Below are positions 2,041 through 45,600 of a stretch of 64,000 bases of DNA, piece after piece. Each line of letters starts with the position of its first letter. Within the stretch, counting starts at the first letter, position 1. The stretch comes from Membranipora membranacea (lineage: Eukaryota > Bryozoa > Gymnolaemata > Cheilostomatida > Membraniporidae). The notes under the pieces are model-generated. The model saw nothing but the letters and a program-made list of their open reading frames with translations. It made no database searches and had not been told where the DNA came from. The stretch covers positions 23,498,001 through 23,562,000 of the forward strand of contig OU612073.1 of the NCBI GenBank assembly GCA_914767715.1, written 5' to 3'. Both the position numbers and the translations under genes were made by a program.

Positions 2041-2224
2041 GCTGTCATAGGGAGGTCTATGCTGTCATAGGGAGGTCTATGCTGACATAGGGAGGTCTAT
2101 GCTGACATAGGGAGGTCTATGCTGACATAGGGAGGTCTATGCTGTCATAGGGAGGTCTATGCTGACATAGGGAGGTCTATGCTGACATAGTGAGGTCTAT
2201 GCTGTCATAGGGAGGTCTATGCTG
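2041..2224. repeat. 20-bp minisatellite, nine units
   Basis: The unit GCTGTCATAGGGAGGTCTAT repeats nine times without spacing (2041-2220) plus four bases. The only common variant is GCTGTC/GCTGAC, so the array is nearly homogeneous and young. It sits between the two ten-cysteine genes. The remainder of 1352-2707 holds no gene I recognise. Confidence 0.97.
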
Positions 2225-2707
2225 ATTAGCTGTTCATCCTTATTGGGCGATGATGTAGTTTGTTCCCTCAAACTAGTGTCCTCAGGGCCAGATCAATAAC
2301 CTGTATTGACTTTGACAGCTGGCTCATAATAATAACAAAAGAAAATGTGTACGTGATGAGTGACTCCTTGTATTGCGCTTCAATAGCCGGAGAAAACAAT
2401 TGGCATGCAAGTATAGGGTCTCAATTGATTAAAAAAAATAGCCAATAAATTCACCATCATATTAGCTTACTACGCACTGACAGTTTTTGTTTGGTCCAGA
2501 TTGCTGGCTATTGAGTGACAGTGATCATGAAGTGATAGCACGTTCCGTTCCGTGTAAACTAGAAGGGCTTGATCAGCGGACTCTTTTGCTCAACTGTAAT
2601 TAAATCCTACAACTACAACTACATACTTCTGATAGGACAGTATAGTAAATTTATTTCCCAAGAGACACACTTACACTGTTTACTTGGCTGGCATATGTAT
2701 CAATTTC

Positions 2708-5265
2708 ATGATGATCGCACAAGGACTATTTTGCTGGTGCTTCTTCATTTTCTTTGCAACTGGTGAGTAGCGTTTCTTACGTAGAGTGCCCTTATCATAT
2801 TTATTTTTAAGATTTTGGCTGGATTCCTGCGACATCAAACATAAAACGAAGCAGAGAACACATAGGACCTTTGTGCGAGGCTGGCAGACCTGAGATTGCC
2901 AAATCTGAGACAGCCCCATCTATTTGACAGAGTATAGGTCGAACCAGCACTCTCCAGATATATATACTATATATATATACTTTATTTTGCTGATCAATGT
3001 CAATGATGAAGATAGCTGCCTAGATGTGAGTAGTGGTCAGCCTATCCAGAAGTCCTGTACCACAAATAGTCTTTGTATCATTAGGACTCTGCTGTTATAA
3101 ATCTGAAGGCTCGGTCGTTACTGCGAGATACTGAGTTTTATGAGTAAACAGGTCGTTGGTTGTAACTTGTTGATAGTTTAAAATATATTATTATTTCAGC
3201 ACCAAATATCTAGATTGCCAGAGCAAAATAAAGTCAACAGGGTACTATTGTTGATGAGCACAATGGTAGTGCTTTATTTACCCCTACACTGTTGTATGTG
3301 GTACAAGTACTTTTAGTTTTTATTCATCTTTTCCGAGAAACGCAAGTGATCCATCCCACCCGCATTTTCAGAGAATAACTTTTAACTGATGTAGAATGTC
3401 TTCTGCCTCTTCTCGCCAAAATGCCACTATTCTTAGACCAACAAAGGCCAATAACAAGCCAAATCACATTTCAAGAGAAATTAATAAAATTTCAGTTTTT
3501 ACATTGTGTATTATTCCCAAGTGATATTTGAATGTCAAATTAACACACCATCACCTCCTTAAACATGAACACCCTGCTCTCTATTTAGCCTCAGCTCAGC
3601 CTGACCCAGATGAAATAATGGAGACGATACCATGTCGCTCATGTTACATCCATCCAGACAGTCGAGACAAGAACTTAGCCTATTGTGACACAAGTCCTGT
3701 ACAATGCCCTGTATATGAGGGATGCTGGGTAGGTAATCGTCTGCATATGGGAGTGGAGGAATAAGTTACAACCATGTTCTGATGCACCATATTGACTGGC
3801 ACAAATGCCTAAGGTTATGAAACAGGAAGAGAGATTTGCTTCGTTTAATCCCCATTGTTATAACTGTTGTTTGTGGCTGGTTTTATATCAGCTTTATCTC
3901 AAAAGGCCCCTATTCTGTTTTTATTGAACCTTTGAGATAAGTTTATAAGTTTTATACGGCTTGCGTTCATCTTTGTATGAAGGATTTGTGAGATTATCAG
4001 TCACACTGGTAAGCAGGGGCGTATATTCTAAAAAATTTCACTCACTGACTTTTCATAGATGAGCATAATAATAGGCGTGGCGGGGAGGGTGTGGGAGGGG
4101 CGCTTAAGCGCCCTCCCACCACGGAGATTTTTGCATATCAGTAGCAAAATAGTGCAAGCAGAGAGGTATTTCAATAGCTCACTGAGCTGTTGGGTACTTT
4201 CAGAAAACAACTCAATAGCGGTAGAAGATCACGGTAAAAATGCTCCAGTTATAAAGCACCCATTTGAAAAAAAACTGACCTTGATGGGATTCGAACCCAC
4301 AACAATCTTAATTATAGTGAATTATAGGCAGACGCTCTACACACTGAGCTATTCAGCAATTCACGGTAATACGAGGGCCATGAGTGCTAATATACGCCAC
4401 TGCTGGTAAGTTTTCTCCTACTTATGCTACTTACTGATATATTTACCGGTGATATGTACATGTAGTCAGTGACGATTTTATGTGATTAGGAGTTAAAGAT
4501 GGAGGAGTACACCATAAGTGGGTGTATGAAGGATGTGACATCACAGCACAGTGGAGCTAGTCCGGTGTACTCTGAGAAAGACATGACTTATTGTACACAG
4601 TTCTGGAGAGATGGAGCATGTACACGAGGAGAGGTAAGTCCAGTGAATCACAACATAATATGTTGTGATTCACTGTGACTCACATTATGATAACTATAAA
4701 CACTACACTATGGTCTATATTAGCTCCATGGTCATAAATCGTAGATAAAAGAAAATATATATTTATACATAGATCATTCTATGACATTATAAACATTTAT
4801 ATGCTATCTCAGGCTCTGTATATGAAACAACCAGTGAATTTTTTCATTTCATTGTACCACGTTCTTGTATGAGACTCTCCATATTCTCACATATTATAAT
4901 GGCTTAGCCAGGCCAATAATATTGAACATAACTGATATGTCCCTAATATTTCAATTAACTATTAATTAGTCCCATAAAGAATTCCAACAAATTGCTGGTC
5001 ATTGTTTAGGAATTATGATGAGAACAGTTGACAATTTTGTATTTTAATCTCATACTGGCTATTGTCATCAATTTCTTTTTTGAATTTGTGCTTCTGATGC
5101 TTCTGTTGTCCCTTTTTACATCCTTTGGTTATCTTTCATGGGAGACATTTCTTTTTTTTCTAGATGTGCCTGTCATGCAGCACTGCTAGTCATCTTACTA
5201 TAGAGATGGGAGTACTAATGGCTATAATCAGCTTACAGACTATACAGCTTATGAGACTGCTCTGA
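2708..5265 (+). CDS. Ten-cysteine Ly6/uPAR-like secreted protein, complete, probable GPI anchor
   Basis: Four exons: 2708-2762, 3589-3728, 4490-4633 and 5164-5265 (stop TGA). The first exon starts ATG ATG ATC GCA and encodes a signal peptide (MMIAQGLFCWCFFIFFATA) that joins in phase to SAQPDPDE. A longer ORF starting nearby in another frame does not splice in phase, so it was not chosen. The mature chain has ten cysteines (IPCRSC, AYCDT, VQCPVYEGCW, SGCMKD, TYCTQF, GACTRGE, MCLSC) and ends in a hydrophobic stretch (MGVLMAIISLQTIQLMRLL), typical of a GPI-attachment signal. It should be a small cell-surface or secreted protein. Exon boundaries, phases and the EGCW / GCM / CLSC landmarks match the paralogue at 140-1351. 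The family call rests on cysteine count and size only. Possible polyA signal near 5724. Confidence 0.8.
4014..4402. mobile_element. hAT-type MITE with perfect 8-bp target-site duplication
   Basis: A 389-bp non-autonomous element in intron 2 of the ten-cysteine gene. Its ends are inverted (CAGGGGCGTATATT at the left, AATATACGCCACTG at the right), and it is flanked on both sides by CTGGTAAG (4006-4013 and 4403-4410). The CAGGGGCG terminus and the 8-bp duplication are both characteristic of the hAT superfamily. There is no transposase. Open frames across it are incidental. Confidence 0.88.
4281..4362 (-). other. tRNA-like segment captured inside the MITE
   Basis: The minus strand shows a polymerase III A box (TAGCTCAGTGTGTAGAGCG) and a near-perfect B box (GGTTCGAATCC) about 50 nt apart, as in a tRNA or tRNA-derived SINE head. 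I could not build a clean acceptor stem, so it is not called a functional tRNA. It lies wholly within the hAT-type MITE. Confidence 0.7.
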
Positions 5266-5826
5266 TCCTATACCTATTAGCGCCACATGCCACCATAGGT
5301 GTAATCTTCCATTCCTTCATTGACTGACGAGTTATATATGAAGTCCAGTCACAAAAACGGGTCAACTGCAGGGTTCCTATCCAAAATAATTAACATCAGC
5401 TCAGCAAGCAATTACAGCCCTGCTTCTATTCTATCCCCAAATAATACAGGCAATTAACATGGCTACCACAAGCATCTTTCCGGATCCTAAAATAGACCAA
5501 GTTTTTAGATGACATTATCAATGACTTTGATATATAATATATTTTAGACTCACTGACTCACAAATATATCAATATTTGATACTGCAAGGCAACATAGGCT
5601 ATGCATTTCAATTTGGACCACAAAGATCTACATTCTGTAGTGTAGAGCAGATTTGTGCAATAACTTATTTTTATCAACATTTTATTTATCTACAATATGC
5701 AGACAATCATCAAGTTTCTGAACAATAAAAAAAAGATTTACATAGAACTACTTAATAACGTATGTTGTCTCCTCTCCATCAACACCAATTGTAAATTATA
5801 TGTGACTGTGTCTCACTATTAAGTTA
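5266..5826. other. Convergent 3' intergenic region
   Basis: Space between the stop of the ten-cysteine gene (plus) and the stop of the proteasome gene (minus). It should hold both 3' UTRs. On the plus strand AATAAA occurs near 5724. On the minus strand AATAAA occurs near 5690, about 130 nt past the proteasome stop. Nothing else was recognised. Confidence 0.5.
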
Positions 5827-8684
5827 TCATCCCTCATAGAATTTAGGCATATCATCCCCTGTGACTGTGTGTCTCTCTACACCATCCGCTGAGATTGAGG
5901 CTACTCGGATAACTCCACCACTACTACCATCACGGGTCATCGCCAGGGATAAACCTGTAAGCATGGATCATATAAGTGTGAGAGAAAGGACACAGAACAC
6001 AGCTGAGCTGGCTGATAACTGACTACCAACCAGATCTTTACGTTCTTTATCTTGGTTTGAGTGATAACACCATCTATGTCTAGTGCAGTGTTGTCCAAGT
6101 TGTCACTTGAAATGTTGAATGACCTTCAATCAAGATCTCGAATTCCATTTTTTAAACATCATCTTTGTTGTGTGGGGTGAATGGCATCAAATGTTAGATT
6201 TTATATAGTACGATACATCAAGTCAAAAGTTGTCTTCCCCTCAAACTTTTACAAGAGGACAACTCCATAACTCCACTCATCCTAATGCATACATATACCT
6301 ATTTCCCGGTTCAATAATACTTTCTATAAAGATTCCATAATAATGTTACTCACAATTAGCTATGAACTGTAGGGCCTCCTGTTTAGTCATATTAGGTTTG
6401 TATGTCGCGTCGACGTATCCGTATATATAAGTACTACCTGATCCTCCGAGAGCTACAGCCTGTCTCAGCATCATACCACCGATCGGTACTCTATATACCT
6501 ACAAAAATATATATATATGTATATAAATATCTAACCATGGCATCAAATTGTAATCTTAGTGAAAACATACACAACCTATCAGTTAAATAATTCATCATTG
6601 CCTAAATCCTTGAACAATAATACAAACGAACGTAACTGAGCAACCATAAAACAATATACCAAACAATCAGTAACCTGCTTAGAAGATAAGTGAATAACAA
6701 CTTACCTGTCCACCTTTCTCTTTATCCCAGCCTGCCACAATAATACCAGCCATGAGCTGATCTCTGTAGTTATAACAGATCTCTCTGAATATGTTAGCAG
6801 CTGTATGTACACTTGGCTCAGCACCCATCTGCATCCTATCGAGAGTAAATAATAATATAAATCAATACATATAGATGACAACAATCAATGCAAACAGAGA
6901 TGGTTCTTCTATGCCCAGATAGTACTCTCAGAACTCAGATTTTTTGTCCATAACTCGATTAGTTTTGATCGGCTTTTGAGTTTGAAAATTGCTTTACAAT
7001 CAGCAGCATCTTTTTATCAACATTAGGTAACTTCGGCCTTTGGTATCTATATTAAATAATCATTAATTATAATCATTTTCATGGGGAAATCCAACTGAAT
7101 AGATTTTATGATTAGGTATACGGTTTTTCAATGATATTGACATGAAACTAAGAATTATCTCCTCATTGGTAATAGGGAGACCACTTGAATTCAAGTTGGA
7201 TTCAGTTGGATTTCCCCATGAAAATGATTATAATTAATGATTATTTAATATAGATACCAAGGGCGCGAAGTTACCTATTGATGTCATTTCTTGTTTGTCT
7301 AAATCTCGTATCAAACTGTTAAGGATAAGCTGCTTAATCTATTATAATTTTCAAACTCAAAATCCGATCAGAATTTATCTAGCCTAGTATATGAGCTGCA
7401 AGTCAATGATATGAAAAAATTCCAATGTGGTTATGTCGCCCATAATTATATGCCTCAGTGCCTGGGCCTTTATTATTAAGTCTATGGGGAATTTCAAGCT
7501 ATAGGCAGTTTTATTATTAACGTATTTCACTAATGTTTTATATAGACTAAATAATAAACATATAAACCATATACATAAAAGGCACTTATTTGAGGGTGAC
7601 GTTACATTGTTGAATTGTGTAGTAGGAATTATGTTATAATTGATTTGCAGTCCAGGTTTTATTGTTGATATTGCAAAATCCGATCAAGTTTATCAACATA
7701 TTATCGATAAAAACCTTGACTGAGGACTGCATATTATCAATGATAACACCTTCGCTACAACACAACATCATTCAATGTCATGATGTCACCAAATAAATGC
7801 CTCAATGCTCAAATTATGTACCGTCTAGCCTCTAGGTATACTATCAACCGAATGTGTTATCTATATCTATATCTATATCTATATCTCAACAAGCTAGCTA
7901 ATTTATGTCCTGTTCAGTGTACATACTATATTGTTGTCTCAACTAAATCATTAAAATATAATATTGAAGGTAGTTATTATAATTATCTATAGAACATACT
8001 TGTGAATGCCGAGGTTGTATTTGACGATGTCTGCCACAGCCTGAGTGTCAGCAGCACTACCGCTACGGCAGCAGTATATGGACTTTGTGACAGGGGTCAG
8101 TTTGTCTGTCACACGGTTAGCTACATACGATCCCGTAGTTGTCCTGGAATCCGCTCCGATAACAACTCCTCCATTATACTCCACAGCTAAGATTGTGGTC
8201 TATAAAAGGCAGAAATATATCAGTATTACAGAGACGAGTAAACGAATGGAATAGACCAATAAGCCTAATAATTCAAATGAATCACTCACTCACCACTAGC
8301 AGTCAACTCAATGTGTTCAAAGCTGCAGAGACACATTCTCAACTGATGGATCTTCCAGACGTTGGTTGAGCTTGGTTGGTTTGAGCTAGTACTAGTATGT
8401 AGTAAGTTCCAAAGTTAGTAAGCATAGAATAGAATGGATAGATACAGATAGAGATGATGATTGATGATATTAATTAATTAATGATGTTGGTAAACTTTTT
8501 TCAGAACAGACTGACAAACCCATTTAATATGGCACAATTGAGGCTAATCAAGGTTTGAATGCACTCCCATTTTCTGTCATGTACTTACACCTGTTGTGTG
8601 TTCACTGGTCAGCCAGTCTGGAGTCGACACTCCATAGTTGGGTGCTGAATTAATATTTGCTGAGTTCATTGTCATAGAAGCCAT
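5827..8684 (-). CDS. PSMB6: 20S proteasome subunit beta type-6 (beta-1, caspase-like)
   Basis: Five exons on the minus strand: 8589-8684, 8000-8199, 6706-6835, 6354-6498 and 5827-5954 (stop TGA). All junctions are GT-AG and in phase. A ~32-residue propeptide ends EHTTG, followed by the catalytic N-terminal threonine of the mature chain ([13 protein letters not shown]). Conserved blocks are [69 protein letters not shown] and [12 protein letters not shown]. The mature subunit is cleaved after Gly and forms the beta-1 active site, cutting after acidic residues in the proteasome core. The immunoproteasome paralogue PSMB9 is vertebrate-specific, so PSMB6 is the natural name. Intron 2 (6836-7999) is enlarged by fold-back repeats. 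The gene shares a 318-bp divergent promoter region with the SLC35F6-type gene. Confidence 0.95.
6968..7371. repeat. Long inverted repeat (fold-back/MITE) in proteasome intron 2
   Basis: The inner arms 7028-7100 and 7200-7273 are almost perfectly complementary over ~73 bp (sharing CATGGGGAAATCCAACTGAAT-type sequence). The outer arms near 6968-6992 and 7348-7371 also pair. The near identity of the inner arms points to a recent insertion. No ORF is present. Confidence 0.85.
7609..7775. repeat. Imperfect inverted repeat
   Basis: The left arm around 7610-7673 and the right arm around 7708-7775 are mutually complementary with mismatches (GCAGTCC / GGACTGC, TTGTGTAGT / TACAACACAA). It lies in the same proteasome intron as the larger inverted repeat. 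A short TATATC microsatellite follows at about 7855-7885. Confidence 0.6.
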
Positions 8685-9002
8685 TTTCTTTTTCTTATGT
8701 CCTAAAACAACAATGATCCTATAAGGAATTTTCAATTTGAGCAAAGAATCCAGGCTATTTGATGTATCTGAAAGCTTATTGGTGTATATCAGTAACATCA
8801 CGATCTGATTGGGCACAATACTATAAAGAATACAGGCTAGTAAGTCACATGACTCTAGTACGCCTATATCACGTGGTGTAAATAGGAATCATATGAGAGA
8901 GGCAGACTCTAGACATTCTGTAGCTTTTCTTGCCTTTCTCTGCTCATCTTAGATCTTCCAGGTCAACCTCTACCTCACTGCTAAGCATATATATCATCAA
9001 GA
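8685..9002. promoter_or_regulatory. Bidirectional promoter region, proteasome / SLC35F6-type
   Basis: The two divergent start codons are only 318 bp apart, so this segment must hold both 5' UTRs and promoters. It contains a canonical E-box CACGTG at 8870-8875 and a near-palindromic GTCACATGAC at about 8845-8854, close to the lysosomal CLEAR consensus GTCACGTGAC. Sharing of regulation is an inference from spacing. Confidence 0.6.
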
Positions 9003-12000
9003 ATGGGCTGGTCACCATATCAATTCTTTTTGGCAGGTTTGATGCTTGTAACAGGCTCAATCAATACAATCTCTACTAAGTGAGTACCCCTTTCACTTAT
9101 TCAGCACTGAACTCAATAGTAGTACAATTCAATGTTATTCAGTTATGACTATTTATGTATTATTTATAGTAATTAAACCCATACCCTTACTTGTTACTTG
9201 TCGAGTAATCGCCAACTTCTTTCCAAAAGGTAGAGGCAATATGGCTATTCATCAGTCCTTTTCCGGTCCGGGTCATCCACAGGGTCGTCCGTCAGAGTGC
9301 CAAGTCCTATCTCAGCCAGCCACAGGTGGTGCTTCCAGGAGTCTGGATCCAGGTGGGAGCTTGTTCCACAGTTTGACCGTAATGACCTTAAAGTTGTTCT
9401 GATGGTACTTAGTGTTGCAGTGGGGTATCATATACTGATGCTGGTGACGTCTGGAGAAGCCAATTGTTGGGCAACGGGGATTGATGTAGTCACTGATGTT
9501 GGTTGCAACATCATCGAAGTCATTGCTCGGAGGAGTCCAAGCCTGCGATGTACTCGTCTTGTTTCCAAAGTATTCCATTCCATATCCTTTATGAGTAGGG
9601 TCGTGCTGGTAGTGTGATCAGTGCGTTTTATGTTGTGCACTAATGTAGCAGCCCTTCTCTGAACAGCTTCTAGTTCCTATTTAGAAATCACAAAGCTCTA
9701 TTGACAAGAATTTTGTTGAGCCTGTGTTTACCATGTCAACTGCTGCAGTTTATGCAATTCCAGTTGTGAGCATCCCTGTTGGCAGTAACCCATGTTGTTG
9801 AGTGGAGCAAATGGCCACGGATCTAATGAGAATTATTTTTTTCCAGTCAAATTGATCTGTGGCAATCTATTTTTGTTTTGAAATGACCAGTCAATGACAA
9901 CAAGTTTATGTACACTCAAAGGATGGCAATCATACAGTATTTGCTGAATGCTCTCGTGTAAACTGCAGATTGTTGTGAGGCAGTCATGAGGTGTGGAATC
10001 AATAGAGAGTTGAGGGATAGTACGCATGAAATCTCTTAATGTTGGGCAGTGGGCACCCTTTGCTTAACACTAGCGTACAGGGACATTGTTTGGTTTACTT
10101 ACTGTAATCCTCTTGATCCTAATCATTAGTTGCAAAGAACCACTGTGCGCACAGAACTCCTTTTTTGGTAAAATCGTAGAGAAATTTAAAGTGATTACAG
10201 TGATTACTCTCTGATTACAGATGGGCTGATAAGTCTAACGGTACAGGAAACTCATATTATGGAAAAGCTTATGGCGAGTCTCGGCCGTTTGATCATCCTT
10301 TTTTTCAGGTTTGTAGTGTTCACCTACCTCAGTGTATGCATGCTTCTGTCATGGCACTGAAATATATTAGAGTGCTAGGTGAACGTAAGAAGAGCTTGGT
10401 GTCAGGCTCAGTAAATAGTATTGTTGACAAATGCATAGAATTATAATTTGAATTCGGTGTCTACTAATCATCTTGTCACTGTGACTGAAGTTCTCGTAGC
10501 ATTAAACAAAATGGAAAATAGAGTATATACCAATATCATTGTGTAGCTTCCTTTTTATGATTGAGTTGACAGTCTGTAGATAGATTTCTTGGGGAAAAAA
10601 AAAAACATTTTAAATACTAAGTAAGTTCTGGTTGATCACTATATGGAGAGTGTTAAAGTATATATGGCACAAAGGAAATTGACTGTTATGTGTCCTGAAT
10701 TATATATTATATCATAAACTCTTATTTCATGTGTAGCCTAAACAGAAATTTAAGATTATTTTGGACATGTCTGCAATAAGTTCTGGATATCGTAGACAAA
10801 GATCACAATTCTCTGCTTTTGATACTGATCTCTTGTATTATACACTGTCAATTTTGATGTCATCCAATGATGGAATGTAAATGCTTGATGATCTTTTACC
10901 TTTAACAGTCAGTGGGTATGTTTCTTGGAGAGCTGAGCTGTCTGATAGTATTTAAGATAGTGTACGCCTACTGGAAGGCTAAGCGTGATGCCGGTGAGGA
11001 GACGAGTCACGGTATTAATAAACTCGTCGATGGTAATCAGGATTTCAACCCCCTGATATTCTGGCCGGCCGCTATGTGCGATATGTGTGGTACTACTCTT
11101 ATGTACATCGGACTCAACATGACAGACGCCTCCAGCTTTCAGATGCTCCGAGGTTTGTTACTAACCTTAGTGTCAGTATTTTAATGCATTGTGTATGTGA
11201 AGGTTTTGTAACTTGGTCTATCAGTAAGCAAATATCTCTGAAATATTCAGTCATGAGTAAATTCACTAACTGCTTTGGTCAAAACCTGGATTTTCTTGTT
11301 GTGGGTCTGATTTGTAAGGTATCTGTATTGTATAGCAGTTTCACTAGATTACTTACATTATTCTCATACACATCGGCTATTCACCAGTGACCCTACAATA
11401 GAGCGTCTCGTGACAAATACTTAGGAAAGATTAGATAACATTCTTGTCAACTAATCACCTTCAAGGTCTTGTGATTTGAGCGCTCGCTCGTAATAACTTT
11501 CAACAAGTATTTTAATATTGAGAATTGATTAGGTACACCGTGCTTGCTCATCGTATGTGTACTGAGTTTGAAGTTCAAAGCGCTGATCCTGTTCTCTCAC
11601 TACACCAGTGCTTTACGATGCTGACTAATTTCCTTTTTGATATATCCCTGCACCTAGGCACAATGGCACCCTTTCATAATATTGTGTCGTTTACATTTAT
11701 ACAGGAGCTGTGATAGTTTTCACGGCGCTGCTGTCCGTCACATTCCTGAACAGGAAGATCCGCAGATTCATGTGGGTCGGTATTCTGTTTGTTGTACTCG
11801 GTCTGGTGGTCGTTGGTATTGCTGATGTCTATTACCAACCTCCTGGTTCTGTAAGTATTTCTATGGGTTTTAACATTCAGCATTCAAAGATACAGATTCA
11901 GCATAGATATAGATACAGACACCCTTAAATGAGTGTTGGAGATTCTTTTGCTGAAAATCACCTTTGTTATCAGGATTCTGAAAACTTGGAAAACTATGGA

Positions 12001-17718: not shown

Positions 17719-20516
17719 ATGCTGCCAATTCCAGCTATCGCTTTGATGCTGACAAATTTCTTCTTACACGGACCTGCTCCAGAGTTCTACAGCAATCCAA
17801 ACCCTGGTTAGTTTCCATGCATTTTAGTTTTCTCAGTTCGTCTAACATTGTTATCGTGCGAATTGCATACCAGGTTCCAATCTCCTGCTCATATGTTTAT
17901 TATGCTAGTCAGCACCATTGCCAGGCAAACATTGTGCAGTGTGCATTTACCACTAAGCGTACTCCAGAGAAGTGTTAGGATAGGAGGTATACGATATCTG
18001 CATGGCTCAAGCATCGGTCATGACAGAGACTCTCACCAGTGATAATAAGCTGAGCAATTATCAACTTTGGCACAAAGGCGCAGGCTGTAAGATGTTAACC
18101 AAACTAACTGGAACGTAGGTTGAGCTGAAGAAATTTAGATAATGGTTGTAAAACTTTGGCAACATTCAAAGGCAAATCTACAGAGCTCGTTTAAGCCAAG
18201 TTGCCTGTATTTTGGGCAGCATCACAAAACAATTATCTGTGCTGATGTTAATTTATTTTAAATTTTAGTAATTGAAGTTGCACAGCTATGTGATGATAAT
18301 ACAGGAGTGTGTCAGTATGTGGATAAGGTGAGTCACATCGACTAAGTCGCTCTAATGATCACAAGTACACAGAATTATCTGAGCTGTATGAATTTGAATT
18401 GTAGACTAGACAGCTGACCATTGTATACTATGCCAAGTTGGCCGTGATACAGAGGCAGAGTCTGTTTTTTTATGGCCATAAATCTTAACTGGTCAGATCA
18501 CGTAGCTGTTTGTCATCATGCAGGGTGTTTTACACGCATAAGCATGTATTCTTTTATTCGTTACTCACAGTAACATACACTTATTCTTCGTTATGCTGCT
18601 TCTTGACCATCAGCAGAAGAATAGTTGGTCTGTGACTGTAGATTGCAAATTTATAGTTTGAGTTGCTATTTTGACTTACTGTTAACGCTTTGAATGCCTA
18701 TAGCCAGCAGAGCAGACGTGCCATACTAATTAAGAGCCATGATAAGTATGTAACTGAATTCATGTCTTGTCGAGTAGATACTATTGTCGTATATATACTA
18801 TAAGATTATTATGTTATATCATATTGTAGCAATTTGTGGTTGCTAAAGAAGAGACTAGAAAACAACTACAACATGAAGAAGCTGCTCGGTTGAAAGCTGC
18901 TCAGGAGAAAGCTGAACAAGAAAGAATTGCGCTCCAGAAAGCCGAGCAAGAAAGAGTAGCTGCAGAAAGAGCTGAACAAGAAAGGTTAGCTCGGGAGAAG
19001 GCAGAACAAGAAAGAGTCGCAAAAGAGCAGGCCGAGCAAGAGAGGATAGCGCTAGAGAATGCAGAACAACAGAGATTAGCCAATGAAAAAGCTGAACAAG
19101 AGCGTGTTGCTGCAGAAAAAGCTGAGCAGGAAAGAGTAGCTGCAGAAAAAGCTGAACAAGAGAGATTAGCTGCAGAAAAGGCTGCCGAAGAACAGCGCAT
19201 TGCTGCAGAAGAGCAAAGAATAGCTGCAGAAAAAGCAGCTGAAGAGCAAAGAATAGCTGCAGAAAAAGCTGCTGAAGAGAAGAAAGCTAAGGAGGCAGCA
19301 GCAGCAGCAAAACCCAAAGAAGCAGAGAAGAAGAAACCAGCTGCTGAAAAAGAAGCTGCATCTGCAAAAGAAGCTGCGACACCAGAGCCAAAGAGCAAAG
19401 AACCAGAGGAATATGGAGGTGAATTCAAGTGGACCAAAGAACAAAAAAACGCCCTAGACAAGCATAACGAGCTGAGGACAAAGCACGGAGCTGCCTTCCT
19501 AAACCTGTCTAAAGGACTGAGCGTGATGGCTACTAAGTGGGCCAAGCACCTTGCCAGCATTGACAAGATGGAGCACACAACTCTGGAACAGAGGCAGAAC
19601 ACAGGGGAGAGTCTGTACGTAGAATTCGGACGCGATGTAAACAGCGGAGAGGGAGAGAGAGGTGAGCAGTGTTATTTATATACCTTCACAGTTAGGGATC
19701 AGTGTAATACAATCCAATAGCATATAGCCCAAAAGCTGTTCAATGCCCTAAATTTGTTGATGAACCGGAACAAACAATGACTACGAGAAAACAAGTCTCT
19801 CGAGTCACAGCAGGAGATGCTGGTGCTGGAGACTATGACGACGTAGGTAAATACGAAGGGAAATGCAATACCAATCTTTGTCAATAAAGTTGGTGTCTTC
19901 AATGTGGTCATTTCCATTTTACTATTTCTGCTTGTTGATAGTCATTGCCAATAGATGATCTCATAATATTTCTATTTTGTTTCAGCTACACAATGGTGGT
20001 ATGATGAAATCAAAGATTACGACTACTCAAAGCCTGTATTTGACTGGGCAACAGGTATGGTGATTGACTAGATTTTCCAAATCAAAAGTTTTCCACTTTT
20101 CCAATCTTAACAATAATTTCAAGGGGAACAGAACATTGGGCTGGCTATCTATTTCTACAATATGCCCACAGCTATGACCTAATAAATTACTGCAAAAGGC
20201 GGGAAATGAGCTCCCTAAGGAGAGTATATTTTTAGATTGAACAGCTAGCGTAACCTTTTTATTGTTTTTATTAATTATCTTTATTATAATTAGTTTTTTT
20301 TACCCTTGTTACTTGTTTATTATTTGCATTAATTTTATTTATATTATGTTTACAGGTCACTTTACCCAGCTGGTATGGTTTGGAACTGTAGATATGGGAC
20401 TAGGAGTAGCTGTATCTGAGACAGGAAAGACTTATGTTGTAGCAAACTACTTCCCACCAGGAAATACTGCTGGCCAGTTTGAGGCCAATGTAGGAAAGGC
20501 ACTCAATAAGAAGTGA
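17719..20516 (+). CDS. Secreted CAP-domain protein (GAPR-1/GLIPR2-like) with KAEQER helical repeats
   Basis: Five exons: 17719-17806, 18269-18327, 18830-19661, 19986-20054 and 20356-20516 (stop TGA), giving 402 residues. A signal peptide (MLPIPAIALMLTNFFLHGPA) is followed by a short segment with two cysteines. Residues ~50-190 are a highly charged helix of ~10-residue repeats (KAEQERVAAE type), ending in an Ala/Lys/Pro-rich linker. The C-terminal ~150 residues are a CAP domain: LDKHNELRTKHGA, MATKWAKHLA, GESLYVEF, WWYDEIKDYDYSKP, the CAP1 signature GHFTQLVW and CAP2 signature VVANYFPPGN. The best match in architecture is the GAPR-1/GLIPR2 subgroup, which lacks the Cys-rich tail; those proteins are normally intracellular, so a signal peptide and coiled coil are unusual. 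A 233-residue minus-strand ORF here is only the shadow of the repeats. Confidence 0.92.
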
Positions 20517-23297: not shown

Positions 23298-26200
23298 TTA
23301 ATTTGACCTTCTGCCTGAGATGACATCATCATATGAAGGCAGGCAATTATCTGAAGTTGTTGTGTTATTGAGTTGGTCGGATGACAGCAGACTTTGATCT
23401 GGAGTTGTCCCCTCATCTCTCAGTAGATTCTGCATACACTGTGAAAATAAGGTAGTATAGTACACTAAGTCTGAACACCCATAAATTGAGGAGGAAAATT
23501 TGATGAGAAGTGCAGTTCTCTCAAATACCTTCCAGTAAGTGCACCATGTAGTAACTAACCTGTGCACCGTTTCGCCACATGGTAAGAGAGTCTAAGCAAT
23601 ACCTACTACTATAATAATAATAATAATATTAATTTTTGTGAGTCAACGATTGGTCAGCTATTCCTGATCGCTTCTCGGCCCATTGGCTAAGGTCAAAGTG
23701 TCACTGCCAAAGGGCGATTAGTGCTTGTTTCAGTTTTTGGCAGCTTGCTGCACACTCACAAACGAGGTCCTCTATGGCCTCACCTCTGGGATGCATTCTA
23801 GTTTTCTATGATGTATCACACTCACAGTACGAGGACTTCGAGCAAATTGCGTCCCTGTTTTTCGGCAGCCCACCTTCTGTTTTGTCATAAACAGGAACCA
23901 GCTATCCTGTCCAGATAGCTTGTTTTTACTGTATCAGAATCAACAGACCCTTGTGTTTTGATTTTGTTTTTCTTCCTCTCAATTTTTACATAGCTGTACC
24001 ATTTTAACCATGTATAAACAGGATCACACCTCTGTCATAGTTATCTCGATCATCTCAATCGAAAGTCATGTTTAATTTAATCAAATAATGGTATTTGATT
24101 TTCGCTTCATATACTTTTGGACCTGTGAGTCACTGTCTTCGTGGGAAGAGATTCTGATAGGATATACAAATCTATATTATCATCCATTCACATGTTTCCA
24201 TATATCGATTTGACACCAGTTTTAAGCTTGACCGATCTATGGGAATAGCATCTTAGTTCACTTCAGCTTGTACCGAACGACATTTTTGATGCAAAAATAT
24301 ATATCGTGTTTAGGCGGCATGGCTGAATGGTTAGAGCGCTTGCACACAATGTCTTCAAATGTTTTTTCCATCATGGAAATCGTTAGGATTCATAATTCAA
24401 AATTGGATTGGGCCACTCATTTGAGGCACGGGTCCATAGTGTATACTAGTCTATGTGCTCAGACGGGTCCATAGTGTATACTAGTCTATGTGCTCAGACG
24501 GCTGCAATGGCATAACATTATCATTTCCGGAAATGTTTGGTTAATAATGTAATGCCATTGACTCACATTGCAGCCGTCTGAGAGCTTAGACAACAGTAAA
24601 GAAACATTATCATTTTTGCCCTACTTCTTTTCCCCAACATATGCCTCTTTGGCATGCAATGTAAAACATCCGACCAGGATGATATTGCCTGCCAAATAAA
24701 ATATGTATTATAATAATATTTTGGCTTGCATAGGAATGTCGAAGGGTTACAGTCTAATCTTAGTTTACATCTAATTTACTATCTCACATAGGAACAACAC
24801 AACACAAACCATCAGACATTTTCCATTAGATTTTTCTTTTATAAAAGCTGTCATTGGTATCAGCCAAAACACAGGATTCCAGTTGATATCAATGACAGCT
24901 CTATAAATAGAAAACCTGACCATAATGTTCTGACAGAAAGTCTGCAGTGTGAATGCAACTTTAGTCAGAAAACAATAACAAGCTGAATGGAGAATGCATT
25001 CCTCACAATTTTCAAGAAGAATTTTCTTTCACAGAGAACCAACATTCTGTTCCCAATAATTTACAATCTAATTATAGGAACTTGAGCATATGAGGGCATT
25101 CAGTAACAGTAATTTAGTCCTTTATTGTCCAGGATAGAGAAATCGGAGGTGACTTACAGTATCAGTGTATGTGGGCGGAGCGTTCCTAACATTGGGCGTG
25201 GCATAAGATCTAGTATAAGAATAGTCCTGAGCGTTTTCTATATCCGCATCATTGACGCCTCCATTAGCTAAAGTCGATGATCAAAAGGATAAAACATGAT
25301 AAAACGAAGAACAGGGAAAATAATTATAGCAGAGTGGTCATTTGATATTGGCTAGCATGGCATGAGAAGCCTTCAGAGTGGACGGTGAAAAATGTTTGAA
25401 ATTGATATCATCAGCTGCAGTATAATAGATAGCTGTTTTACCTGGGTGCCGCTTCTCTCTGAAACGCTGTTTTATCCGTAGACTGGCGATCACAAGCATA
25501 ACAATAACAATCACTGCTATTGGTATTATGGGTGCCAAGATAGACCTGTTTAAAGAGCATGGATGCAATATCGAACATTATACGATATGAGATAAAGCAG
25601 TGTAGCTTGAAGGTGAAGTCAGGGGTCAAGTTATATTTTATATCTAAAATAGACCAAAAGAATTGAAAACACTGAGCTCGCTACTTTTAATAGTTCAACT
25701 TCTCGTCATAAAGAACAGTTGATGGACAGAAATCGACTCTTACAGAAATTAAGCTTTACTAGCGAGTCTATATTGATAGAATATTTATCGCCAATGACAA
25801 TGACTGAGGGTTACACATATCAATGTTTTATACATCTATATCTTATCACAGAGTAAGGATATATCCTTACTCTGTGATCTTATGCTGGGCAAGACTTAGG
25901 TATACATATATGTATACATATATGTATATACTGCTGCAGTCACCAGAATAGGACTCAAATTAGTCACTTTTTACCCAAAAAGAGGTTTTCTGGGATGCTA
26001 TGTACCGATTGAGTTTGATACTATACGCAACTGGATGCGACTAATTTCATTTTTCCTACGCCATCCGGTCTTTGAAGCTTGAGTCATCCAAATAACACAC
26101 ATGGTTGGTTGGTTGGTTTATTTTGTCACAAACATTAGGTATGCTGCGAGATTGAGTGTTTATACTGTTACATGAGTAGGGAATACCAAAAAGAAACATA

Positions 26201-27756
26201 AACAAAATGAGTAAAGTAAAGTCTGACTTCTAGTGGATTAAAAAATATCTTGCAATATCAAAATCAAGTGTCTGAGGAATGAGTCTTTACCCCAGGCAGT
26301 TCTGTATTTAAGGCTGCGATATCTGCCTGAGGGGAGTTTCTCAAGAAAATTGTTTAAAAAATGTTCGTCATCATGTATTATCTGCAGGGCCAAATTACTA
26401 TTCATGGCGGGACCAAAAGAATATTGACGTACTTTTTACTGGCTAACATTTATGTGCTCAGTGGCTATCTACTTATGATGTGTAAATACTTACGATGGAA
26501 AATTGTTAGCATGACTATACCAGTAATCTTGCCACCCTGTAGAGCTTTCAGTGGTAGAAGTTTTATTACTAGAAGTAACAGATCCTGTAGTATTATTTGT
26601 CACCAGTTCAGGTTTACCAGTGGGTCGCTTAGAATTACTGTTCCAGCTCCACCATGGGATTATACCATCCTTAGGAATATCATCTCGTTGTGCTTGAACA
26701 GAAACTGCAAGAGGAAATCAAGACAGTTTCAGTTTATTTGTACATTCGGTATCATGAGAATGATAAAATTGAATGTGTACATTAATTAATATATGGACTT
26801 AGAAATGTTGTTAAAATAAGTTGGAAAAAATGATTTGGCACGTTTTTGAGTCTTGCAGGTCTTGGGTCGGAAAAAGGTGTTATGACGAGAGGATGTTCTG
26901 TTATTGTTTCGTATTACTCTACTAAAAAGTGGATGCTCTGGATCACTCGCTATCTTATTAAAATGACTCTTGCTCAGATCAAAAATAAAATCAGATAAGG
27001 TTGGAAAACGCAAAAGTAACAGTCTTTCTTCATAGCTATGGTCTGGAAAAATGGGTTGTAGCAGACCTTTGAATGTGCAAAGTGTAAAGTGGTCTCTGCT
27101 GTGTGCTGAATCCTCCTATCTGATACACGATTATCATTCCTGATTTGGAGACGGGTTTGGCCCTGTTTATGACAAAACAGAGGGTGGGCTGCCCCTACAG
27201 AGGGACGCAAGTTGCCCGAAGTCCTCGTACTGAGAGTGTGATACATCCTAGAAAACATCCTAGAGTTGAGGCCATGGTGGACTTCCTAATCGTAAGCAAT
27301 GAACTCATTGTCGTAGGTGTGCAGCTAGCTGCCCAAAACTGAAACAGGCACTAATCAGCCATTGGCAGTGACACTTTGATCTTAGCCAATAGGCCGAGAA
27401 GCGAGAAGGTTTGGGGTTTGGCCTATGCAAAAGCCGTCGACTGTGTTACATTGGAGGGCTCTATGCAGACTAATGTAACGTAACCGCATGCTTTACTCAG
27501 TGTGCACATACTGGTTATGTTAGCTTCTGTGACTATATATAAGCTCGGAATCAAATGAATCCGAATCAATGTTTTGAAACATCCACACACATGATTTCAT
27601 ATGAATGGCTGATTAACTGTGAGACTTACCATTGCTGTCAGAAAGCAGTTCGGGGGAGATAACACTAATAATGAGTAGCAGAAATAAAATCTTGCGAAGT
27701 CTGACAAGAGAGCAGACGAGTAAATTAGCTGAACCTACATAGGAACTGGTATACAT
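23298..27756 (-). CDS. PY-A: single-pass membrane protein with PPTY and LPSY tail motifs
   Basis: Five exons: 27630-27756, 26494-26704, 25442-25545, 25158-25267 and 23298-23438 (stop TAA), in phase, 230 residues. Exon 1 encodes a leader (MYTSS..., then ILFLLLIISVI). Exon 2 encodes a ~70-residue ectodomain with no cysteine, starting VSVQAQRDD..IIPWWSW and rich in Thr, Ser and N-glycosylation sites. Exon 3 holds the membrane helix (IIPIAVIVIVMLVIASL) and a basic stop-transfer. Exons 4 and 5 are the cytoplasmic tail with NAPPTYTDT, then CMQNLLRDEGTT and LPSYDDVISG. PPxY and LPxY motifs bind WW domains, notably of NEDD4-type ubiquitin ligases; PMEPA1/LDLRAD4 have a similar layout. Function is inferred from architecture. 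Introns contain two LINE fragments and two U2-type SINE copies (one in intron 1, one in the last intron). Confidence 0.85.
23667..23898 (+). mobile_element. U2 snRNA-headed SINE-like element, copy 1
   Basis: A 232-bp repeat whose first bases, ATCGCTTCTCGGCC, equal the 5' end of U2 snRNA. The match continues as TTGGCTAAGGTCAAAGTGT with few changes. It is flanked by CAGCTATTCCTG (23655-23666) and CAGCTATCCTG (23899-23909); the paralogous intron positions near 43020 and 52283 have this target once and no element. The 3' end is TTTTGTCATAAACAGG. The second copy lies inverted at about 27161-27404. It is in the last intron of PY-A, antisense to the gene. Confidence 0.85.
24312..24340 (+). repeat. 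tRNA A-box-like fragment (possible SINE head)
   Basis: GGCATGGCTGAATGGTTAGAGCGC matches a Leu/Ser-type tRNA A box region. No convincing B box follows before the duplicated segment at 24430, so only a 5' fragment is supported. Confidence 0.45.
24430..24600. mobile_element. Hairpin related to the 16.2-kb MITE, preceded by a 36-bp duplication
   Basis: The segment GGGTCCATAGTGTATACTAG... is tandemly repeated twice (about 24430-24500). A hairpin with arms 24493-24509 and 24566-24582 follows. Its inner stem (TGGCATAACATTATC / ATAATGTAATGCCA) is that of the MITE at 16190-16299, but the outer stem is unrelated. Confidence 0.75.
24841..24906. repeat. Hairpin with ~24-bp arms
   Basis: ATAAAAGCTGTCATTGGTATCA pairs with TTGATATCAATGACAGCT across a ~17-nt loop. 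It lies in the last intron of PY-A. Confidence 0.7.
25845..25878. repeat. 34-bp perfect palindrome
   Basis: The sequence is its own reverse complement, with half-site ATCACAGAGTAAGGATA. It is followed at about 25905-25930 by TATACATATATG repeats. It is in intron 2 of PY-A. Confidence 0.85.
26105..26395 (-). mobile_element. LINE 3' end, same family as the 45-49 kb element
   Basis: The minus-strand frame ending at 26238 reads HDDEHFLNNFLEKLPSGRYRS, then WGKDSFLRHLILILQDIF. This matches the C-terminus of the 45.2-kb LINE (HDEEHFINDFLTKCPSGRYR, WGRDNFLRHLIHTL). The 3' end runs into a TTGG-type microsatellite at 26104-26120. Paralogous introns at 49.45 and 54.25 kb lack this segment, so it is an insertion. 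Confidence 0.8.
26786..27020 (-). mobile_element. LINE fragment (reverse-transcriptase C-terminus)
   Basis: The minus-strand frame ends FNKIASDPEHPLFSRV, RTSSRHNTFFRP and KRAKSFFPTYFNNISKSIY. The DPEHPL..RTSSRH...R.KSFFP pattern is that of LINE ORF2 tails of another family. It is in intron 1 of PY-A. Confidence 0.6.
27161..27404 (-). mobile_element. U2 snRNA-headed SINE-like element, copy 2
   Basis: The minus strand starts TCGCTTCTCGGCCTATTGGC, then TAAGATCAAAGTGT, closer to U2 snRNA than copy 1. It is collinear with copy 1 over its whole length to the same 3' end (TTTTGTCATAAACAGG). A GGTTTGG-containing direct repeat flanks it (about 27148-27160 and 27403-27414). It lies in intron 1 of PY-A, in gene sense orientation. 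Confidence 0.82.
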
Positions 27757-28271: not shown

Positions 28272-31200
28272 ATGCACGAGAGAAGATACGAGACTGAAAT
28301 TAATAAGGTAGGCCTTCTTTTGTTGTAGTTCGTGGTAGCTCAGGCCTACCTACAAGCTTTACTATTACTTACAGGCCTACGACCTTGCATACCAACAATA
28401 TTACAGGCCTTCCCGCTAACAGGCCAACCAGCTTATAAAACTACAGACTTACATATCTACCAGCTTTCAGGCTGGCTACCACAGCTTACAGGCCACGGGT
28501 CTACTCCAAACCCTGGGATTTTGTCAAACATTGCCAAATTCCCAGATTTTGGAGTAGACCTGTGTTACAGGTCTACCAGCTTGCAGACCTGCCAGTTTAC
28601 AGACCTAAGACCTTACAGGCCTGCGAGCTTACAGACCTAAGAGCTAACAGGCCTGCAAGCTTACATACCTATCAGCTTGGAGCTTTCAAACTTTCAGGCC
28701 CACCAGCTTACAGGCCTATGAGTTTTCAGACATAAGAGCTCACAGGTCTACCAGCTTTCAGGCCTGCCACAGCTTATAGGCCTGCACAGCTTACAGACCT
28801 ACCAGCTTAGAGCTTACAGTCCTACAAGCTTACAGGTCTACCTACTAGCTGAAAAACTAACAAGCTTATAGATCTACCAGCTTACTGGCCCACCAGCTTA
28901 GTTAAAACCAGCTTTCAGATTTTCCAGGTTACAGGCCTACCGCCTTACAGAACTACCAGCTTTCAGGTCTTACAGACCTAAGAGCTTGCAGGCCTACAAG
29001 CTTACAGGCCTACCAGGTTACAGACGTACAAGCTAACAGGCCTACGAGCTTACAGGCCTACCGATTTACAAGCCTACCAGCTCACAGGCCAACCAGCTAA
29101 CAGGCCTCAAGCTGGTAGGCCTACAAGCTTTTAGATCTACCAGCTTACAGGCCTGCACCCTTATAGGCCAACAAGCTTACAGATCTACCAGCTTTCAGGC
29201 ATACCACAGCTTGCAGACTTACCATCTTAGCAGCTTTTAGGCCTACCAGCTTCCAGGCCTATGAGCTTACAGGTCTACCAGCTTTTAGGCCTGACACAGC
29301 TTATATGCCTGCCACAGCTTACAGACCTACCAGCTTAGAGCCTGGCAGCTTTTTTGCCGACAACCTTGCAGACCTAAGAGCTTACAGGCCTACCAGCTAA
29401 CCGGCCTACAAGCTTACATGTCTACCAGCTCACAAATTTACAAGATAACAAATCTACCAGCGTACAGGCCTTCCAGCTTTCAGGCCTACCAGCTTACAGG
29501 CCTTATCACAGCTTACAGGTCTGCAAGCTGACAGATGTACCAGCTTTCTGGCCTACCACAGCTCACAGACCTATTAGCTTGCAGACCTACCACTTTAGGG
29601 CCTAGCAGCTATCAGGATTACAAGCTTACAGGCTTACCCCCTCTTATAGGCCTACCACAGCTTACAGACCTATTAGCTTGCAGACCTACCAGCTTAGAGC
29701 CTAGCAGCTTTCAGGCCTATGAGCTTACAGGCCTATGAGCTTACAGGCTTAAGAGCTTACAGATCTAAGAGCTTACAGGACTACAAGCTTTCAGGCCTAC
29801 CAGCTTACCGGCCTACAAGCTTACAGGTCTACCAGCTCACAAACTTACAACATAACAGATCTACCAGCATACAGGCCTTCCAGCTTTCAGGCCTACCAGC
29901 TTACAGGCCTCAAACTTTCATGCGTGTAAGCTTACAGGCCTCAAGCTGGTAGGACTGTAAGCTGGTAGGTCTGCAACCTAGTCAATATGTAAGATGGTAG
30001 GCCTGTAACCTGGTAGATCTGTAAGGACATTGGCCTGTAAGCTGTGGTAGGTCTGAAAGCTGGTAGATCTGTAAGCTTGTAGGTCTATAAGCTGGTAGGC
30101 ATGTAAGCTCACATGCCTTCCAGCTTAGAAACTGACAAACCTACAGACCTACCAGCTTGCAGGCCTAAGAGCTTACTAGCCTACGAGCTTACAGATCTTC
30201 CAGCTTACAGACCTACCAGCCTACGGGCCTGGCAGCTTTCAGGCCTACCAGTTAACATGCAGTTTATCCAACCAGTAAGAGCTCCACAGACAGTACTTGA
30301 TGGGTAATTTCATTTGTCACCAAGCAGTTTTTTCAAAGCCCCTCTCGCTGCTTAATTTAAAAAGTGAAAGCTACATTAGCGAAATATTTTGTGTCTCAAA
30401 GCATGCCAAGATAGAATAATGGTATTACAATGTGGAAATAACATGCTGCTGGTCCTTGCAGGTGACTGGTAGTACAAAGGAACAGCTGATTTCTGAGTTG
30501 CTGAGCCTTACAGGAAGGCATGGCAGACTTCTAGAGCGTAAGGGTGGCCCAGAGGTGGTACATGGTCAACCTCTAACAAAAAAGAGATATTACTATCGAA
30601 TCGGTAAGCATGTAAGGTGTAGTCATGTACAGTTGAGAAGCCATATCGTTATTCAATATGTAAAAAGGTAAAACGTTTGAAAGAATAGCATCTCAATTAA
30701 ACAATTTTTTTGAGAGTTGATAGGCTTAAATTACTTGAACTAAAATCTTGAGTGTAGCTGGCTGTTCCTGTGCCATCAAAGGCTGTTACTCAAAGAAGTA
30801 TGAATGTATGAATGTATGAAAAAAATCATGAAAACTGAAATTCTACTCAATTACATCCTCTACAGCGTCTAGGTAAAAGTGAAAACTTCTCCATCTGAAA
30901 GTCATGCTATTGCCAGGTCATAAAAAGTGGGTGTAAGCATACAACCCTGCTGACATCCCATATCACAACAAGAGTATTAGTTCGAATAGTGTTGAGGTGA
31001 ACAACGAAATTTAGAAACATGACTTACTACTTGACACTCCATGGTCTCTACCATACTTCTCCGATCAAACTTTCTGTGTAAACTTTGACAAGCACTATGT
31101 TGAAATTTTCAGGTCGCATGTTTTTGTTTACAGATAAAGAATCAGTTGAGGAGTCAACAAGTCGAGTGATCTCGATATTGAAACCAAGAACAGGGAGGTA

Positions 31201-42625: not shown

Positions 42626-45600
42626 TCACCATCGGGCTAAAATAACATCATCATATGACGGAGGCAGGCAATCATCCGAAGCTGTTGAGTTATTGAGAGG
42701 GGCAGATGGCATCTGAGTTTGATCAGAAGTTGTCTCCTCATCTCTCACTAGAATCTGAACACACTGTCAAAACAAGAAAATACAGTACACCAAGGATTTC
42801 TCTTGAAATCCTTGAGTACACTAAGGACTAAATACCAAAAATTTGAGGAGAAAGTTGATGGTATGAGAGTTTGAGCATAACTCACATTTTTTCTTTGGAA
42901 TTTCGATTAACTATTTAAATTCTATCTTGCAAGCCATTGCACTCTTAAAAAACCGACTGCATGAATTCTATCTGTCATCAAATATTCATATGTTAGTAAA
43001 CGATCCGCCAGCTATTCCTGTTCATATAGCTTGTTAATACTTCATCTCTCTAAGGCCACTGACTAGTTATTGCTATCAAATATTGTTAAAAGAAAAAATG
43101 TCATTGAAGCTCTGTTTTTTTGTGTGGCAAAAATGACATCAAACAATTTGGCCGACTTCAATTATAGGAACAATAGCATCTGAGGGCATTCAGTCGCAGT
43201 TAAAAGAACTGCGCATATCAAGAGGTTAAAGCGGGCTACTCAAATGTCCTTTGCTGTTCAGGATAGATTAATCAGTAGTGGCTTACAGTATCAGTGAATG
43301 CGGGCGGGGCATTCCTAGCATTGGGCGTGGCATAAGATGGAGCATAAGAGCAGTTGAATTCTGTGCCTCCATTTGCTAAAATCAACGATAAAAAAGAAAT
43401 AACACATGATCAAACGGAGACAAGGAAAGAAGTCACTGCAGAGTGAGCATTTGATATTGGTTTCAAACAAACTCACAGCATGGGTCAGTGTCGGCAATCT
43501 GCCAGGGAGGTGGGGAGGGGGAAGGTGGGGAGGCGGTAGGAGGGTGAGGAGGGAGGTAGGGAGGTTCCTTTTTGTCGCAGCTAGTTTTCTATGTGCAAAA
43601 AGTCATCAATGTTATGATGATAATCTTAGCAAACCATAAATCACTTTTTATTTATTACTTAAGCATTGATATATTCAGCTGAAGTGTAACAGATAGCTAT
43701 CTTACCTATGCGCTGACTCCTCCTGTAATATCCTCTCATCCTTACAATGGTGACCAATAGACCAATAACCAACAAAATTGCTGCTATGGGTACTCCAAAT
43801 ATATAGCTGTCAAAAAAGCATAACACATATGTAATATGGTATACTATGAAACAAAGCAGAGTATGAAGCCGAAGAACAGCTTTGTTCAGTTTGACTATGA
43901 ATCTTGAATAGCTGGGTCCATTGTTACTTTTAACAGTTCAACCACAAGGGTGACTATATAAAAGTTGTAGGAGGTGGCTCAGTTGGTTAGAGCGCCGGTC
44001 CTTCAACACGCAAGTGATGAAGGTAGTGAGTTCGAATCCCACTGCAGTCCATTGACTACTGGGGTTTGGTTGGCCCCCAGATGTGCTCCGACCTGCCTGC
44101 AAACTGAGAGCGAACTGGCGCAGACATTGCGGCCTAGCCCTTAAGGTAACTAAATTTCGACGCCCTTACTCGGGATGTGGCGCCCTTACTCGGGATGTGG
44201 CGCCCTTACTCGGGATGTGGCGAGTGATATGACATCTGATTTTAATCAACCTTAATCAACCAAAACTTAATTTAGTAATTTTCATTGACAGCTCGAGTTG
44301 TAGGTAATTAATTGATGCCTGTCATGAAGGGACAGCAGATGATGGACAGAAATCAAACTATTAAAAAAACTCTTACACCTTAACCTACATTGTAACAATT
44401 TATGCTGTTTTGGATGGGCGCTAAAAACAGGCACTGGCAACGGATGTTGTGAGATATGTGGCAAGTGCTGTATGGGACGTGTTTTACACCACCCATGCGC
44501 CTCCTACAGCACCCACAACAATGGTTTATGGGCCTTGAGTGGTGTAAAACATGTCCCATGCAGGGCCTGCCACATGCCTCACAACATCCGTTGCTAGCAC
44601 CTGTTTCAATGCCCATTCCAAACAGTAAAAACTCTCGCAATGTGGTTTAGTTTGTGCATGATTTCTGTCCATCAACATACTGCTGTCTCTTCATTACCGG
44701 CATACAACAAACCATCTATCATGATTTTTCATAAAACTGGCTACTGCACATACAGGACTGAACATTTTCTATAATGGAGTTTTTTTATACATATTTTTAG
44801 ATGCAAACAGACAGAATATTTTTCGCACACACAATGGCCTTGTTAAGAGTCAGAGGGCTACCCATATAAGAGTCAGAGGGCTACCCATATAAGAGTCAGA
44901 GGGTTACCCATATAAAGGTTTTATACGTCCATATCTTAAACTGGGCAAGACTTCGGTATTCAATGCTTCAGCGATATTCCCGATGAAGCTTACATACATG
45001 AATTATACCTTACACGGCAGGCTGCAGCCACAAGAAAAGGAGTCCAATAAAGATATTTTTACTCAAAAAAGGTATTCCAGTACACGATGTGGATGGATTT
45101 ATTACTATCATAGACAAAAATTTGTCACGAAATACGTTGCTAATACTGACAAGAAAGAAAAACATGGAAAAAATCAGATCTCTGTTGTATAAAAAGTTTT
45201 TTAGAATAGTATATTATTAAGTGTATGTATGAGATGTCTTAAAAAGTTGTCTCTACCCCATGTACCCTGATATTTAACGGTGCGGTAGCGACCTGAGGGG
45301 CATTTAGTTAGAAAGTCATTGATAAAGTGCTCTTCATCGTGTATGTACCGTGGTCCAAGTGTCTTGATCTGGTTGGCCACCAGAGCATCTATATTGGGGT
45401 GCTCAATCCCTAACTTGGCGGCATCTTTAAATATTTTGCGTAAGGCCTTCTTGTCGCTTGCATGGATGCTTGTAAAAAGTATGGGGAGACAGTAAGTGAT
45501 GAGGGATACAATAAAACTCTTGAATAACATATGAGAAAGGGGCTTTGAGCTATAGTATACAAAGTTTTTCACAATATACATGCGTTGAGATGCAGTAGTC

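Follow-up and report, generated by a model that had tools for sequence, protein, structure and literature searches.

Two short repeats in the genome of the bryozoan Membranipora membranacea (339,339,785 bases in 18 contigs) begin with the sequence of the U2 small nuclear RNA (snRNA) and then run on into something else, raising the question of whether an snRNA has here become the 5' end of a mobile family, and by what route. Both lie in the window, the 64,000-nucleotide stretch C9:23498001-23562000, for which a first-pass annotation had proposed a SINE-like family with a U2-derived 5' end. We conclude, with a probability of roughly 0.88, that the repeats belong to a SINE family whose head derives from U2 snRNA and which is presumably moved by a LINE enzyme that recognises a 3' hairpin; that the head was acquired by a template jump is our proposal, and the least certain part.

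The two copies are found where they had been annotated, at 23667-23895 on the plus strand and 27404-27162 on the minus strand, and are members of a dispersed 231-nt retroposon family. The end of copy 1 is 23895, the earlier figure of 23898 taking in three extra nucleotides (AAC) that precede the flanking repeat. Both copies start at or near U2 nt 1 and keep the match for about 35 nt, as proposed: the head of copy 1 (23667-23701) runs from U2 nt 1 to 35 with two mismatches to the host U2, and that of copy 2 (27371-27404, minus strand) from nt 2 to 35 with no mismatch over 34 nt. Against a human U2 query, blastn returned E values of 1.5e-6 and 1e-8 for the two copies. The body of copy 1 (23702-23876) has no U2 likeness above chance and leads into a terminal hairpin, CTGTTT-TGTCAT-AAACAG plus G, at 23877-23895; the body of copy 2 (27181-27370) carries a segment of about 20 nt extra to the consensus, and its hairpin with G occupies 27162-27180. 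Direct repeats flank both. Those of copy 1, CAGCTATTCCTG (23655-23666) and CAGCTATCCTG (23899-23909), differ by one 1-nt indel. For copy 2 the repeat is GGCCAAACCC, found at 27414-27423 on the 5' side and at 27153-27161 on the 3' side, where its first G is common to the element end, and nine unexplained nucleotides (CAAACCTTC, 27405-27413) separate it from the U2 start. The copies are 77% identical over 251 gapped alignment columns. Each has its own flanks and repeats, and the family occurs throughout the genome, so a segmental duplication is ruled out.

No Rfam family matches within the window at the gathering threshold, because a 35-nt piece of U2 scores under the cut-off (36.8 versus 46 bits). 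Below that cut-off a U2 match covers the window copy with an E value of 4.6e-6, and U2 alone is significant there, the three other listed matches having E values of 0.1 to 5 and lying far under their cut-offs. The best of these non-U2 matches (E 0.1, 20.7 bits versus a cut-off of 55) is regarded as a chance hit, and another RNA family in the body was rejected.

A whole-genome search, suggested in the first-pass annotation and run here with copy 1, found far more than two copies: at least 49 scored places, with 40 of the 2,002 first-look candidates scored. A 24-nt pattern across the head/body junction, allowing at most one mismatch, occurs at 1,336 places genome-wide (676 on the plus strand, 660 on the minus), compared to none for the reversed-pattern control, and the 100 matches listed are spread over C1 and C2. 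For the 19-nt tail of subfamily A (see below), exact matches were found at 484 places, again with none for its control. A 200-kb sample, drawn at fixed steps across C1-C6 and irrespective of the family, contains one copy, which extrapolates to some 1,700 per genome, the interval (43-9,450) being very wide. From the junction count 0.25 copies would be expected in the window, against the two present, for which the window was picked. The annotation had itself named two other ways to read the locus, a pair of segmentally duplicated copies or a longer repeat with an internal U2 match, and both are excluded by the more than 1,000 places and by the terminal position of the U2 match.

The consensus, built from 34 copies, is 231 nt long and comprises U2 nt 1-35, some 178 nt of body without relation to U2 and a terminal 3' hairpin of roughly 19 nt, with neither poly(A) nor a simple repeat at the 3' end. 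Six of 40 sequences had been dropped: the refetched window copy, three flank-sharing relatives of L004, a duplicate of L011 and one 5'-truncated copy. Identities to the consensus range from 87.6 to 98.7%, many copies being at 98-99%, in a set fetched as the most similar to copy 1 and not drawn at random. Two subfamilies are distinguished, A (32 copies) and B (six copies, three from one array), whose hairpin loops differ; they are separated by 31 differing columns outside the head, gaps included, and by none in head columns 3-35.

The yardstick for the head was changed from human U2 to host U2. The consensus head is identical to nt 1-35 of the host U2 (35/35), represented by the array gene L051, and diverges from it at nt 36; a second, dispersed U2 gene (L057) gives the same 35-nt match. 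Host U2 and SINE share the motifs TATT and CAAAGTG, where the human U2 used as query has TTTT and CAAGTG. A genome search for U2 gave at least 45 matches, at least 41 of them above the cut-off (46 of 22,093 candidates scored), and among the matches listed 36 score at least 172 bits. Thirty of these 36 form a tandem array with a period of about 1.29 kb at C6:14621734-14660556, in which one unit, near 14638480, is missing from the list.

Among 38 copies, a set that leaves out five duplicate loci and shorter fragments, differences from the consensus affect 22 of 1,275 head cells compared to 324 of 6,694 in the body and 40 of 669 in the tail. The head-versus-body Fisher test gives a p value of 5e-8, which is indicative only, as cells of related copies are counted as independent; the fairer comparison of subfamilies A and B, in which three of the six B copies are units of one array, sets 0 of 33 head columns against 31 of 196 others (p 0.01). 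The lower divergence of the head, together with the lack of any A/B difference within it, suggests that it is kept constant, either by selection or by fresh copying from U2. The body is not a further piece of U2 in sense or inverted orientation, the local alignment scores being reached by 375, 619, 419 and 994 of 1,000 shuffles. The predicted fold of the whole RNA (z -2.98) pairs the head with the body, which we do not read as an inverted U2 copy because these alignments are no better than shuffles. A U2 retropseudogene was likewise rejected: U2 ends at nt 35, a body without U2 likeness follows, and there is no poly(A).

An exact repeat of 8 nt or more flanks 26 of the 38 full copies. Twenty-two of these are plain duplications of 10-19 nt, and in the other four the repeat runs into a neighbouring array unit (two units at L023, one at L017 and one at L015). 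U2 begins at nt 1 in 12 of the plain-duplication copies, at nt 2 in four, at nt 3 in four and at nt 5 in two, so that the precise 5' ends and target duplications that the annotation had suggested checking are seen, with 20 of 22 copies starting at U2 nt 1-3. For all 26 the corresponding counts are 13, six, four, one (nt 4) and two (nt 5); where the last letters of a duplication also occur in U2, the start is ambiguous by one base or more. The 12 copies without an exact repeat comprise window copy 1 and L009, whose duplications have diverged, a truncated copy at L017 whose repeat has one mismatch, array units of L015, L023 and L024, the copies at L004 and L058, and four single copies (L002, L008, L018 and L027) with no flanking repeat at all. 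The element end is followed by GC at 14 of 18 scorable junctions, or 12 of 15 when repeats running into a neighbour are set aside, against a background of 3.8%; either the nick favours N|GC, or this is where the end of the RNA anneals. The targets are not U2 sequences in nearly all cases seen.

Copy number, 5' precision, identity of the head to host U2 and target duplications together bear out the main claim of the annotation, a SINE-like family with a U2 5' end. They weigh heavily against the view that this is no retroposon at all, but a satellite, a segmental duplication or a MITE in which a piece of U2 is present by chance. Short arrays at L015, L017, L023 and L024 and the flanks common to L004, L005, L013 and L014 are what speaks for such a view, yet the 1,336 places lie on both strands (the 100 listed being spread along two contigs), 22 of 38 copies combine a duplication of variable length (10-19 nt) with nearly constant ends, and the ends are unlike each other, with U2 on one side and a different structure, the hairpin, on the other. 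We regard this explanation as extremely improbable, and continue with a U2-headed SINE copied from RNA.

How would such an RNA be recognised? The subfamily A element ends in CTGTTT-TGTCAT-AAACAG followed by G, a hairpin with a z score of -4.05 that none of 200 shuffles equalled. The corresponding end of subfamily B, CTGTTT-CTTAGC-AAACAG, has a z score of -1.29 and is matched by 20 of 200 shuffles, a fold no better than chance. Outside U2-headed elements the hairpin was met once in the 363,946 bases searched, at L012 near 2759, with the same CTGTTT ... AAACAG stem and a 7-nt loop. A tail 11-mer with at most one mismatch lies at 18 other places besides L052; at three of them, which were read, a LINE end was not found. 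In these bases, which make up about 0.1% of the genome, we recognised no LINE with the 3' end of the SINE, and mobilisation by a resident LINE, as the annotation had proposed, is presumed. The window itself holds a fragmented non-LTR retrotransposon on the minus strand (45201-49353), with a further reverse transcriptase fragment, in plus orientation (46681-47753), in its midst. These LINE pieces at 45-49 kb were rejected as the partner, the hairpin being absent from them.

We propose that a LINE reverse transcriptase would bind the RNA by its 3' hairpin and copy it at a nicked target, that is by target-primed reverse transcription, presumably favouring targets whose duplication starts with GC, and that copying would reach U2 nt 1-3 in most events. 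The head may have been gained when, at the 5' end of a headless body RNA, the enzyme jumped to nt 35 of U2 snRNA and ran on to the U2 5' end, which is the least certain step of the scheme. The fused RNA could then have become the master, with selection or re-copying keeping its head U2-like. No headless body was seen among the sequences fetched as matches, the window and the 200-kb sample.

Arrays at L015, L017, L023 and L024 consist of A and B units at the same duplicated site, or placed head to tail without a spacer. At L015 and L024 the A and B units lie within one shared duplication, which points to repeated insertion at a single site, and the head-to-tail units of L023 point to head-to-tail jumping. 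At two further loci, L054 (C2:26524600-26524900) and L055 (C11:16021650-16021960), U2 nt 2-37 is joined directly to the complete 5' end of a SINE; these look like a further jump onto U2 RNA, possibly one duplicated event, as their flanks are alike. Together, arrays and joined copies would favour a template jump as the way in which the head was gained.

SINEs in general are recognised by the A and B boxes of an internal Pol III promoter, a feature that this family lacks as far as canonical boxes in the subfamily A consensus are concerned: the best A box (7/8) is reached by 29% and the best B box (6/10) by 99% of 1,000 mononucleotide shuffles. In addition, a TTTT stands at positions 216-219 of this consensus, ahead of the 3' end, so transcription by the route usual for SINEs is not evident. 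It might still be supposed that the family is an ordinary Pol III SINE whose internal promoter has degenerated, and in which the U2 head is a late substitute for a tRNA or other head. Most SINEs do work through Pol III, according to the available text of PMC7245038, and U2 nt 18-29 is weakly A-box-like (6/8); against this stand box scores that shuffles reach so readily, the TTTT ahead of the 3' end of subfamily A, and an Rfam result for the window copy that is significant for U2 alone. We find a Pol III ancestry of this kind doubtful and retain the SINE with a jumped U2 head.

The copies do not appear to bring a U2 promoter with them either. In a comparison of 43 5' flanks, U2 genes included, the only matches were those of the U2 genes to themselves and one of 20 bp with an E value of 0.36, and nowhere in the genome do the final 14 bases of the array-type U2 promoter stand ahead of a SINE, allowing up to three mismatches over 56 nt. 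Five non-array copies have extra nucleotides before U2 A1, the one adjoining it being G in L011, L030, L021 and L029 and C in L025. The extra G is possibly the trace of a capped RNA, in what are very small numbers.

A second U2-headed retroposon is present at C5:25185144 (L053), where U2 nt 1-50 is followed by a different body of about 340 nt. It spans L053 (positions 1-271) and L059 (C5:25185130-25185568, the 87 bases between them being unread), ends in CTGCTT-CTTTCAT-AAGCAGG and is flanked on both sides by AGTTACTTT, a 9-bp duplication, with five more bases (AAATT) preceding the U2 start. Its hairpin has a z score of -3.52, and compared to that of subfamily A the stem is kept by a compensatory change from T-A to C-G; in a second copy, at L052 on C1, the stem is broken (z 0.10, 106 of 200 shuffles).

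This C1 copy is part of a composite locus (C1:34928080-34929140, L058 and L052) that suggests another way to obtain a head, in which a headless element was inserted between nt 35 and 36 of a U2 gene and the capped Pol II transcript, U2 nt 1-35 plus element, became the SINE. A B-type body here lies exactly between U2 nt 35 and 36, U2 nt 23-35 are repeated beyond it as a 13-bp duplication, and the whole is inside a copy of the second family, which ends in CATAAACAGG directly ahead of U2 nt 36-192 and a U2-like 3' flank; L053 resembles the empty site of the composite. An insertion origin would also account for 5' ends at or near the U2 transcription start, for the G adjoining U2 in four of the five non-array copies with extra nucleotides, as reverse transcription of a cap could leave, and for Pol III boxes no better than chance. 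However, we no longer take the composite to prove that the SINE was born in a U2 gene, because a headed SINE inserted into any U2, pairing through its own head, gives the same product. Moreover, the body at this locus is a diverged B copy nested in another element, its upstream side has no likeness to two U2 promoters, the exact junction of CATAAACAGG with U2 nt 36 is single, and a SINE directly behind the array-type U2 promoter was sought in vain with up to three mismatches over 56 nt. Birth by insertion into a U2 gene is therefore possible, if on the whole unlikely, and a template jump onto U2 RNA remains our preferred source of the head.

With at least two families, carrying U2 nt 1-35 and 1-50 and related hairpins, one may speculate that the system repeatedly captures the capped 5' end of U2, its RNAs being made by Pol II and not Pol III, and that SINEs without a Pol III promoter would renew their head from host U2; we put this forward as a conjecture that is rather improbable as a whole.

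Kojima reportedly described in 2015 crocodilian SINEs with U1- or U2-derived heads, which are said to have been gained recurrently and for which a Tx1-type LINE was proposed as partner. SINEs with snRNA heads make up a class termed SINEU in the available text of PMC5753468, PMC4455052 and PMC8010984, and snRNA heads are also treated in that of PMC7245038; a Daphnia paper names a repeat class SINE_U, in its available text without detail. The word 'new' in the first-pass annotation thus holds for the family itself and not for its kind, which is a recognised class (PMC5753468, PMC7245038, in their available text). The family is real and belongs to this rare known class. It resembles SINEU in its U2-derived head (35/35 to host U2), in being short and dispersed and in its many copies with target-site duplications. 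It differs in coming from another phylum and in a head that is exactly the bryozoan's own U2 nt 1-35; its origin is probably independent of the crocodilian elements. In a literature search outside which Repbase itself and subscription journals lie, no paper on bryozoan SINEs was found, and the name SINEU returned no bryozoan title.

A link between non-LTR retrotransposons and U2 is also known from the Utopia and Keno LINEs, which insert into U2 genes with downstream U2 starting from nt 39 (PMC4640811, in its available text). The bryozoan case shares this link, with one U2 interruption seen, but its junction is at host nt 36 and the SINE family is dispersed and not targeted to U2. If Utopia and Keno are numbered as in human U2, their nt 39 would correspond to host nt 40, as the host U2 appears to have one extra A; on that numbering the bryozoan junction is four bases off, and an insertion exactly at the Utopia/Keno site was rejected. 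Retropseudogenes of snRNAs, those of U2 often with poly(A), and LINE-snRNA chimeras, for instance of U6, are dead ends that are not known to give rise to multiplying families. These too have an snRNA copied from its 5' end, whereas the bryozoan fusion has multiplied to more than 1,000 copies.

Having their own class in Repbase, snRNA-headed SINEs were described from crocodilians, and the bryozoan family is a second, far-removed case in a protostome; together with the further U2-headed family in the same genome, it suggests that new SINEs arise recurrently by capture of U2. How a SINE multiplies with the head of a Pol II gene product and without an internal Pol III promoter thereby becomes a testable question.

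Elsewhere in the window we noted an open reading frame (18836-19720) in which a long, repetitive run of charged residues precedes the beginning of a CAP (cysteine-rich secretory) domain, a long degenerate array of a 16-bp repeat (28565-30251), and two similar, roughly inverted stretches (44300-44720) that are possibly a MITE.
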